This document shows positions 15,738 to 19,292 of a DNA stretch of 64,000 nt, piece after piece (positions within the stretch are counted from its first letter, which is position 1; each line of letters begins with the position of its first letter). The notes under the pieces are model-generated. The model ran no database searches and was not told the DNA's origin. It worked only from the letters and a program-made list of their open reading frames with translations. Position numbers and translations under genes: made by a program. Source of the DNA: Acidobacteriota bacterium (lineage in GTDB: Bacteria > Acidobacteriota > Terriglobia > Acidiferrales > UBA7541); NCBI GenBank assembly GCA_003225315.1, contig QHZD01000032.1, positions 1 through 64,000 of the forward strand. Reading direction: 5' to 3'.

Positions 15738-15980
15738 GACTCGGGCCCGTCCCCCCGTGATAACTTTACTGCACGTTCTCGAATAACAAACCCTCCCCCA
15801 TTTGGCAAGTGCGATAAAAAAGCTGCAAGTGACATAAAAAAGCTGCAAGCGCGATCGGCCATGCCGGGTGGGACAGCCATTCTTGGCTGTCCGCTTTTCC
15901 TCAGTCCTTTGTCCTAACGTTTCAACGTTCTAACTTCTGCCTCCTCCGTGTCCTCTACTCCCTCGTCACCCGCCACTCAC

Positions 15981-16040
15981 CACTCGTCACTAATCACCGC
16001 CTTTCTCACCGCCAAACTCAAATTCCAAAATGCCGCCTGA
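15981..16040 (+). repeat. Direct repeat, copy 1 (60 bp)
   Basis: Begins CACTCGTCACTAATCACC and ends GCCGCCTGA. It matches copy 2 at 16156-16215 at 55 of 60 positions with no gaps. Confidence 0.85.
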
Positions 16041-16155
16041 GTCGCCCACCACGCCACCACTGTCATTTGCGTATTTTGCATTCCGGATGGCTCTGCGGAA
16101 CCGAGCACAGCGGAGGATCTGCTTCTCTCTCCAAACTCCTTTTCTCGCCACTCGC

Positions 16156-16215
16156 CACTCGTCACTAATCACTGCCTCTCTCACCGCCAAACCCAAATTC
16201 CAAAAAGCCTCCTGA
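16156..16215 (+). repeat. Direct repeat, copy 2 (60 bp)
   Basis: Second copy of the 60-bp repeat, 175 bases downstream. Both copies are preceded by runs of the 7-base unit CGCCACT/CGTCACT. The same 7-mer, inverted, recurs at 44726-44748. The pair lies just upstream of the methyltransferase-nuclease island. Confidence 0.85.
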
Positions 16216-16333
16216 CTACCGTGCTCCATCCACTAATGAGTCCCGCGATTGAACCTTTTTGCCGCAGCGAGGGCAGGACTTGTGTTACAACCCCTCCTGC
16301 AGCATGCTACCTCTGGACAGGTAAACACACGGA

Positions 16334-17641
16334 ATGTCTTCCTCAATCCAAACAAGACAACTTGAACTCTATGACTCTTCTAGGAAGTCGCCGGACAATT
16401 TCAAGAACACCACATCCACTTTTTCGGACAATTTGTCACTACCGATTCATCGCTGGTTTAGATATTCAGCCGGTTTCTCAGCGACTTGGGCGTATCAGCT
16501 CCTCATGTCTCAACGAAACCATCAACCCGAGAGAGTCCTAGATCCGTTCGCTGGCTCTGGCACGACAATACTCGAAGCAGAAAGATGCGGGTGCGAGAGC
16601 ATCGGTATTGAAGCGCACCCTTTCGTAGCAAGAGTCACTCGGGCAAAGCTGATGTGGCGCTCAGAGGTGAGTGTCTTTCAACGATTCGCGGAACGAATTC
16701 TTGATTATGCTTCTAGGAATCTGATCGCCCCTGAGAACCCGCCAAAACTTATGACCAGGTGTTTCCCTCCCGAATCACTAACTAGGCTTTATTCGATAAG
16801 AAGAGCTTGGGTGAATTTAGCCGATTGTTCCGCTGCCTCCGAACTAACTTGGCTAGCAATGATGTCGATAATCAGAGAGTGTTCGCCCGTTGGAACCGCG
16901 CAATGGCAATATGTTTTACCCAACAAAGCGAAGGCGAAGTCTCTTGATCCCTTCAAAGCCTTTTCAGCGAAGGTCATGATGTTTGCCAAAGACATGCTAC
17001 ATCGTCAAGCAGAACCTCACGGTCCGGCACCCACATTCGAGCTTGACGACGCGCGCCTCTGCAATTCTGTTCCTGACGGTTGGGCCACATTCGTCATTAC
17101 TTCGCCGCCCTATGCTAATAACTATGACTACGCTGACGCGACACGGCTCGAGATGACTTTCGCCGGAGAAGTTGAAAGCTGGGGTGATCTTCAAGAAACT
17201 GTGCGGACGTACCTTGTTAGGTCCTGCTCGCAGCATGTCGCGCCCATTGCAAGTGAAACTGAGGAGCTCATTCGGAATCCAATTTTGAGACCGATTGTTA
17301 AAGAGTTATCTCAAGTGTGCCGCGAACTGGAAGTCCAGCGTGATCATCATGGTGGGAGAAAAACATATCACACGATGATTGCAGCCTACTTTTTGGACAT
17401 GGCAACAGTCTGGACAGCGCTACGCCGCGCCTCGGCTCCAGGTTCTCTAGCCTGCTTCGTCATAGGCGATTCAGCACCCTACGGCATATACGTGCCGGTC
17501 GACCAATGGCTCGGAAATCTAGCAGTGGCAGCTGGCTTCAAATCCTTTCATTTCGAAAAAACGAGAGATCGAAACGTGAAATGGAAGAATCGGAAGCACC
17601 GTGTCCCACTCAAGGAAGGGCGTCTGTGGGTCCAAGGATAG
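16334..17641 (+). CDS. Site-specific DNA methyltransferase (N4-C / N6-A type)
   Basis: A 435-residue amino-methyltransferase. The SAM-binding motif I is VLDPFAGSGTTILEAE (68-83) and the catalytic motif IV is VITSPPYANNYDY (about 253-265). SPPY is most often found in N4-cytosine enzymes. SLPIHRWFRYSAGFSA (35-50) resembles the N-terminal motif of this class. About 170 residues between motifs I and IV could hold the target-recognition region. The gene is AT-richer than its neighbours. The next gene starts 3 bases after its stop and looks like a nuclease, so the two form a candidate type II restriction-modification pair. Confidence 0.8.
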   Translation: MSSSIQTRQLELYDSSRKSPDNFKNTTSTFSDNLSLPIHRWFRYSAGFSATWAYQLLMSQRNHQPERVLDPFAGSGTTILEAERCGCESIGIEAHPFVARVTRAKLMWRSEVSVFQRFAERILDYASRNLIAPENPPKLMTRCFPPESLTRLYSIRRAWVNLADCSAASELTWLAMMSIIRECSPVGTAQWQYVLPNKAKAKSLDPFKAFSAKVMMFAKDMLHRQAEPHGPAPTFELDDARLCNSVPDGWATFVITSPPYANNYDYADATRLEMTFAGEVESWGDLQETVRTYLVRSCSQHVAPIASETEELIRNPILRPIVKELSQVCRELEVQRDHHGGRKTYHTMIAAYFLDMATVWTALRRASAPGSLACFVIGDSAPYGIYVPVDQWLGNLAVAAGFKSFHFEKTRDRNVKWKNRKHRVPLKEGRLWVQG

Positions 17642-17644
17642 CTG

Positions 17645-18508
17645 ATGGCCGAATCTCCATCCCACCAATTCGGTCAAGTCATAGGAGACATTCTGGAAGC
17701 CGCAGTGAAGCCCGTGCTTCAGGAATTCGCTGACAAATATAATCTCTACCTGGACAAACAGGGCCCGAGACCAACCCGCGACGGAAATAAGGTGAGTTGG
17801 GTAGATAAGAACGGCAATAAGCACGACCTTGACTTCGTCTTAGAAAGAAGCGGAACCCCAAGGATAGTAGGCACGCCGGTGGCTTTCATAGAGACGGCTT
17901 GGCGCCGATACACAAAGCATTCCAGAAATAAGGCACAGGAAATACAAGGCGCTATCATGCCCTTGGTTGAGACCTACGGAACAAGTCCGTTCATTGGTGC
18001 GGTGTTAGCGGGGGAGTTTACAGAGGGTGCCCTCTCGCAATTGGACTCCTTGGGTTTCGCGATTGCTTACTTTCCTTACAAAACGGTCTTAGAGGCCTTT
18101 TCAACTGTCGGTATCGATGCAAGTTCTGACGAGCGAACTGCGGACAGCGAGTTCGCCAAAAGAATGCGGAGATGGAATAATTTGGCAGATTCTGACAAAC
18201 AAAAAGTAGGCCGGTTACTGCTTCGACTCAATGCTCGGCAAATGGGCAATTTCATGGGCCGTTTGGAGAAGACCATAAATCGGCAGGTCAAGACTGTCCG
18301 AATATTGCCACTTCACGGCGAACCAAAGGAATGGAAGAACGTAGGGGATGCGATCAAATTTATCTCAAACTATAAAGAAGATTCTCCCTCATCTGAATTC
18401 TGTAGATATGAAGTCACGATTCTCTATATGAACGGCAATCGGATAACCGGCGAATTTCAGAACAAGAAAGAAGCAATACAGTTCTTAGAAACGAATCAAG
18501 GCACTTAA
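17645..18508 (+). CDS. Putative restriction endonuclease partner of the methyltransferase
   Basis: A 287-residue soluble protein with no name I can assign. Residues 59-67 (KHDLDFVLE) and 79-101 (start PVAFIETAWRRYTKHSRNK) look like a PD-(D/E)xK core: acidic pair Asp61/Asp63, then Glu83 on a strand, with the usual Lys replaced, reading E-T-A-W, and Lys91/Lys96 downstream. The helix RNKAQEIQGAI fits the next core helix. The C-terminal 130 residues are charged and may bind DNA. The 3-base gap to the methyltransferase and the shared low GC argue for joint acquisition. Nuclease activity is inferred from context and motif only. Confidence 0.55.
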   Translation: MAESPSHQFGQVIGDILEAAVKPVLQEFADKYNLYLDKQGPRPTRDGNKVSWVDKNGNKHDLDFVLERSGTPRIVGTPVAFIETAWRRYTKHSRNKAQEIQGAIMPLVETYGTSPFIGAVLAGEFTEGALSQLDSLGFAIAYFPYKTVLEAFSTVGIDASSDERTADSEFAKRMRRWNNLADSDKQKVGRLLLRLNARQMGNFMGRLEKTINRQVKTVRILPLHGEPKEWKNVGDAIKFISNYKEDSPSSEFCRYEVTILYMNGNRITGEFQNKKEAIQFLETNQGT

Positions 18509-19292
18509 AGAAGAGACCGGCGAGGCCACCAGATCTCCAACGTCCAAGTTTCGGCAGTGCAAGACGGTTTTTAATTTTTCCTGTCGAGGTTCTTAGAGCG
18601 TCTTTGCCTCAACTTTCTTCGGGGCCTTTGGTTTTCCACAGATTTCCACAATTCTTTCGAACGAGACCCCTCCCGCAAACCCTTTCCCTCCGCCAACTTG
18701 AACCCCACTGTGTCAAATAGCCAACGTCCATTCGAATCACTAACAAGTTATCCTTGAAAAAATATTACTATCGTGCTACCATAATCTTTGAACTTGACGC
18801 TCCATCCTCGCCTTTGGAGTGCGGTGGCAAGCCACCGCTTTTCCTTCTTTCTGGCCCCGCCACCTTCTTCTCCGAATCTCTGTGCCCGGACTCTACCCCA
18901 GTCGCTCCGTCCCGATCTTATCGGTAAGATCCCGGCCCTGTCGGGACTAGGCCGGGACGAACTCTGCGCAAAATCCGACATTGACCTTCGTTATTTCCGT
19001 AACTCCTTTGCTCTCTATCCTTTCGCTGACTCCCACCCTCTAAATCCTATTGTGTCAATCCTTTACAAAAAAGTGGGAGGGAGGGTCCCTTCGCCGTTCA
19101 GACTCCACCCTTGCTTTAACTCCTTTAGCTGCAACATTTATGGACACCCCCGCAACTGTTGCAAACAAAGGACTTACAGTCTAGCTAAGTCTTTTAGATG
19201 CAACACTTACACAAATCACGGGGGAGGGGTCTCAGGTCGCTACGCTGGCTTTCCTTGCTTCGTTACCTCGTTACATCGCTGCTTCATTCTGC
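18509..19292. other. Gene-free region with fragments of dispersed repeats
   Basis: No gene is supported in about 780 bases. It contains a well-preserved copy of a dispersed repeat (18990-19240) and a weaker relative at about 18640-18720 with GACCCCTCCCGC. It also holds a palindrome around 18918-18955 (GATCTTATCGGTAAGATC). It bounds the methyltransferase-nuclease island on its right. Confidence 0.6.
18990..19240 (-). repeat. Dispersed G-rich repeat, copy A
   Basis: Read on the minus strand this stretch shares, in the same order, the words GTAAGTGTTGCATC, GTAAGTCCTTTGTTTGCAACA, TTTTTTGTAAAGGATTGACAC and TTTAGAGGGTGGGAGTC (first and second read loosely) with copy B at 42903-43160. It is a non-coding element about 250 bases long, in inverted orientation to copy B. 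Confidence 0.8.

Follow-up and report, generated by a model that had tools for sequence, protein, structure and literature searches.

In the window analysed here, a 64,000-nt stretch of an Acidobacteriota genome, two adjacent genes on the + strand encode a 435-aa type II DNA methyltransferase of the N4-cytosine/N6-adenine class (N6_N4_Mtase; 16334..17641) and, after a gap of 3 bp, a 287-aa type II restriction endonuclease of a PamI-related family with a predicted PD-(D/E)xK fold (17645..18508). The former was assigned by Pfam PF01555, PADLOC PDLC03306 and its homologues located upstream of the nuclease, and the latter by PADLOC PDLC03525 and PDLC03541, an AlphaFold2 model, VIA-align and residue conservation. 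Rechecking the ORF list and translations of the window reproduced the coordinates, the two-gene layout, the 3-base gap and the motifs DPFAGSGTT, TSPPY, D61-x-D63 and E83-T-A-W given in an earlier note on this DNA. The AT-richness of the genes relative to their flanks, also described there, was borne out by a GC content of 49.2% for the pair (50.2% and 47.6% for the methyltransferase and nuclease genes, respectively) versus 56.7% for the whole window; windows of the same size that are equally AT-rich make up only 0.24% of the total.

Comparison with two sister genomes, G013 and G028, supported the proposed horizontal acquisition of this pair. The two flanking genes have orthologues in the sister genomes; one encodes a cysteine-synthase-like, PLP-dependent enzyme (PF00291) and the other a 369-aa protein that belongs to no Pfam family. 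They are 4492 bp apart in the window, whereas the distance is 1908 bp in G028 and reaches 7143 bp in G013. Blastn against both genomes showed that a segment at approximately 16217..18631 (no strand assigned), bearing the gene pair, is missing from each of them at the orthologous site; its limits, set by blastn and the flanking-gene distances, are approximate. The site is empty in G028, and in G013 it is occupied by a gene for an M48 peptidase and a 144-aa ORF; an IS110-type transposase is located nearby. The nuclease is carried by 4 of 101 relatives (the window's genome counted) and by one further genome among 395 sampled in the phylum. Judged from these sequence comparisons, the gene pair is a recent gain at a variable chromosomal site.

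Just upstream of the insertion, a direct repeat of 70 nt is present twice (15971..16215, no strand assigned; copies at 15971-16040 and 16146-16215, 91% identical). In G013, copies of this repeat (65-70 nt) flank the 144-aa ORF (repeat region 5735-6874 of L059). The presence of several copies of a 65-70 nt repeat around differing cargo at one site in two sister genomes suggests a variable-gene site, and exchange of cargo mediated by this repeat is plausible. Downstream, a dispersed repeat of ~110 bp (19117-19230) has ~35 core copies in the genome that are about 70-83% identical; it contains TGCAAC/GTTGCA inverted elements, folds only slightly better than its shuffles (z −1.5 to −1.8) and matched no family in Rfam. 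Both flanking repeats described in the earlier note are thus real, but the dispersed repeat was rejected as a boundary of the island, because G013 has it at the same place without the gene pair; it therefore predates the insertion, or at any rate is unconnected with it.

In the 435-aa methyltransferase, motif I (DPFAGSGTT) precedes motif IV (TSPPY), and the protein matches PF01555 (E 1e-10) and the PADLOC MTase_II model PDLC03306 (E 1e-136, residues 26-435); the SAM-binding and catalytic motifs expected of a DNA methyltransferase are present. As far as motif type can tell, TSPPY and the order of motif I then IV suggest N4-cytosine methylation. The 287-aa protein matches two PADLOC REase_II models, PDLC03525 (E 1e-67, residues 1-283) and PDLC03541 (E 5e-36, residues 4-208). 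PDLC03525 and PDLC03306, which we take to represent NcoI/StyI-type enzymes, are matched nearly full length by the nuclease and the methyltransferase of the window, respectively. PDLC03541 is in effect R.PamI, because the nuclease of plasmid pAMI7 from Paracoccus aminophilus matches it end to end (308/308 positions, 734 bits). In tblastn, the window nuclease aligned with R.PamI at E 7e-31 and 31% identity, the homology spanning 91% of its length with identical core residues.

The search for conserved pairing suggested in the earlier note found the same methyltransferase family beside the nuclease in 17 other loci. In 17/17 of the homologous loci examined other than PamI, a window-type methyltransferase lies 1-8 bp upstream of the nuclease start (with an 8-bp overlap in one), and these methyltransferases are 43-62% identical to that of the window. 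The loci originate from Bacteroidales, Treponema, Gemmataceae, a Methanocellaceae archaeon, an unclassified rumen-type bacterium and an Erwinia plasmid, the remaining ones being from relatives of the window's genome and from six contigs labelled viral. The six homologues in viral contigs were found by a profile scan, whereas a single-sequence scan found none there, and a search of the annotated phage collection yielded no relative of the gene pair. Nuclease and methyltransferase identities across loci were correlated, with a Spearman coefficient of 0.49 for pairs that are not independent of each other. PamI is the exception in pairing: its methyltransferase gene is directly upstream of the nuclease gene, as in the window pair, but the partner is a C5-cytosine methyltransferase, whereas that of the window is of the N4/N6 type. 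In locus L012, the nuclease is 51% identical to PamI and the methyltransferase is ~55% identical to that of the window; the L012 pair and PamI together therefore show that one nuclease type adjoins two methyltransferase classes.

Some of these loci are disrupted or rearranged. In L004 (1501-2345) and L038 (4001-4306), the nuclease gene is broken by stops and the neighbouring methyltransferase remains alignable along its length, which looks like decay of the system toward an orphan methyltransferase. In the Erwinia plasmid locus (L015, 2093-2569), the full methyltransferase gene is preceded by an additional methyltransferase fragment of 158 aa, which represents a partial duplication.

PamI has been reported as a functional type II restriction-modification module of plasmid pAMI7 with NcoI specificity, CCATGG (PMC3925955). 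Since L012 pairs a PamI-type nuclease with a window-type methyltransferase, CCATGG, or a closely related sequence such as CCWWGG, is our best guess and, going by homology, most likely the site of the window pair. A 2025 review table gives M.NcoI as m5C (PMC12114051); this entry was left unused because the table seems unreliable in other rows. Avoidance of CCATGG was not found in 464 kb sampled from the window's genome (L039-L058 and the window; obs/exp 0.90, rank 40 of 64 palindromes) or in the window itself (17 occurrences versus 16.8 expected), and therefore the genome lends this site no support; recent acquisition would explain the missing avoidance. In the same sample, the most avoided palindromes by z-score were CAGCTG (obs/exp 0.42), CTCGAG (0.61) and AAGCTT (0.59). 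The pair could also be a true restriction-modification system whose site is unrelated to CCATGG, its specificity having been altered by divergence from PamI, a reading that we consider a real possibility without favouring it. The identity to PamI of only 31%, the other class of the PamI partner methyltransferase and the lack of CCATGG avoidance are consistent with such a change, whereas the joining of a PamI-like nuclease (51%) to the window methyltransferase family (55%) in L012 and the common D61-D63...E83-W-R-R..H-S..K core of 13 aligned nucleases argue against it.

As to the fold of the nuclease, AlphaFold2, run with six homologues, gave a model with a pLDDT of 84.9 and a pTM of 0.74. Foldseek matches of the model were weak, the single one below 0.001 being AF1548 (1y88), a protein of unknown function, followed by MspJI and other nucleases. 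In VIA-align, the top match was BstEII (Z 10.2, 135 residues, 2.8 Å) and the second was BsoBI (Z 9.5), with Can2/Cdn1, NucC, SgrAI, BsaWI, PspGI, BbvCI and EcoRI among further matches. The structures leading this list are nearly all PD-(D/E)xK nucleases, and the fold is therefore firm at the superfamily level; structure prediction for 17645-18508, which the earlier note had suggested, thus assigns the 287-aa protein a PD-(D/E)xK fold with its characteristic alpha/beta core. BstEII (PDB 9ibq) and BsoBI (1dc1) have this fold in common with the model, but they are only 10-13% identical to the window nuclease in sequence and the recognition sites of both differ.

The usual position of the catalytic Lys in PD-(D/E)xK enzymes is two residues after the second acid (E+2), although this is known to vary; BsoBI retains E-x-K. 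Among 13 aligned nucleases including PamI, D61, D63, E67, E83, W86, R87, R88, H92, S93 and K96 are invariant, and D61, D63, E83, H92 and K96 are also invariant in a second set of 18 sequences. The E+2 position after E83 is Ala85 in the window nuclease and Phe in PamI and L012, and the canonical Lys was absent from all homologues aligned, PamI included. The modelled fold and the invariant D61, D63 and E83 with Ala85 at E+2 agree with the possible PD-(D/E)xK core with a replaced Lys that had been noticed in the translation, and the alignments indicate that a D61-D63...E83 core without the E+2 lysine is the norm for the PamI-related family. K96 is located 13 residues past E83 within helix 90-111 of the AlphaFold2 model, and this lysine, in the helix that follows the strand bearing E83, is a candidate that may replace the one usually found at E+2.

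Ala at E+2 (Phe in PamI) and the stops that break the homologues L004 and L038 might instead be taken to mean that the second protein is an inactive remnant after loss of its catalytic lysine, and that the methyltransferase works alone; we consider this very improbable, since the E+2 lysine is absent in all homologues, including PamI, which is reported functional, and since the remaining core residues do not vary even between distant lineages, the frame in the window being intact as well. Least probable is the genuinely new nuclease family that the earlier note had ventured: Pfam, NCBIfam and PDB sequence searches returned no family and no relative for the nuclease, but existing PADLOC type II REase models cover the protein, one of them over its full length, it is homologous to R.PamI, and the E+2 lysine, missing also from PamI, which is reported functional, is therefore lacking as a family trait and not as a sign of a new family.

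Family models, fold and conserved pairing agree with the restriction-modification system with a PD-(D/E)xK nuclease that had been suspected at this locus. Homology, fold and pairing, together with the empty or differently filled site in the sister genomes, support our reading of the pair, held with high confidence, as a type II restriction-modification system that is complete, was acquired recently and includes a PamI-related PD-(D/E)xK nuclease. In this system, the methyltransferase would protect the host's DNA through methylation of a short palindrome, its product probably being N4-methylcytosine, and the downstream nuclease, presumably acting as a dimer, would cut that palindrome wherever it lacks the methyl mark. 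More speculatively, the catalytic lysine could have moved from E+2 to K96 on the helix, and nucleases of this family could have swapped C5-cytosine and N4/N6 methyltransferases while keeping their target site, a combination to which we give tentative credence only. The window pair is a complete, intact chromosomal addition to the PamI-related restriction enzymes, a family already known, and provides useful detail for restriction-modification specialists rather than a surprise: the active site of this family is unusual yet conserved, and one type of restriction endonuclease is found with two classes of methyltransferase.
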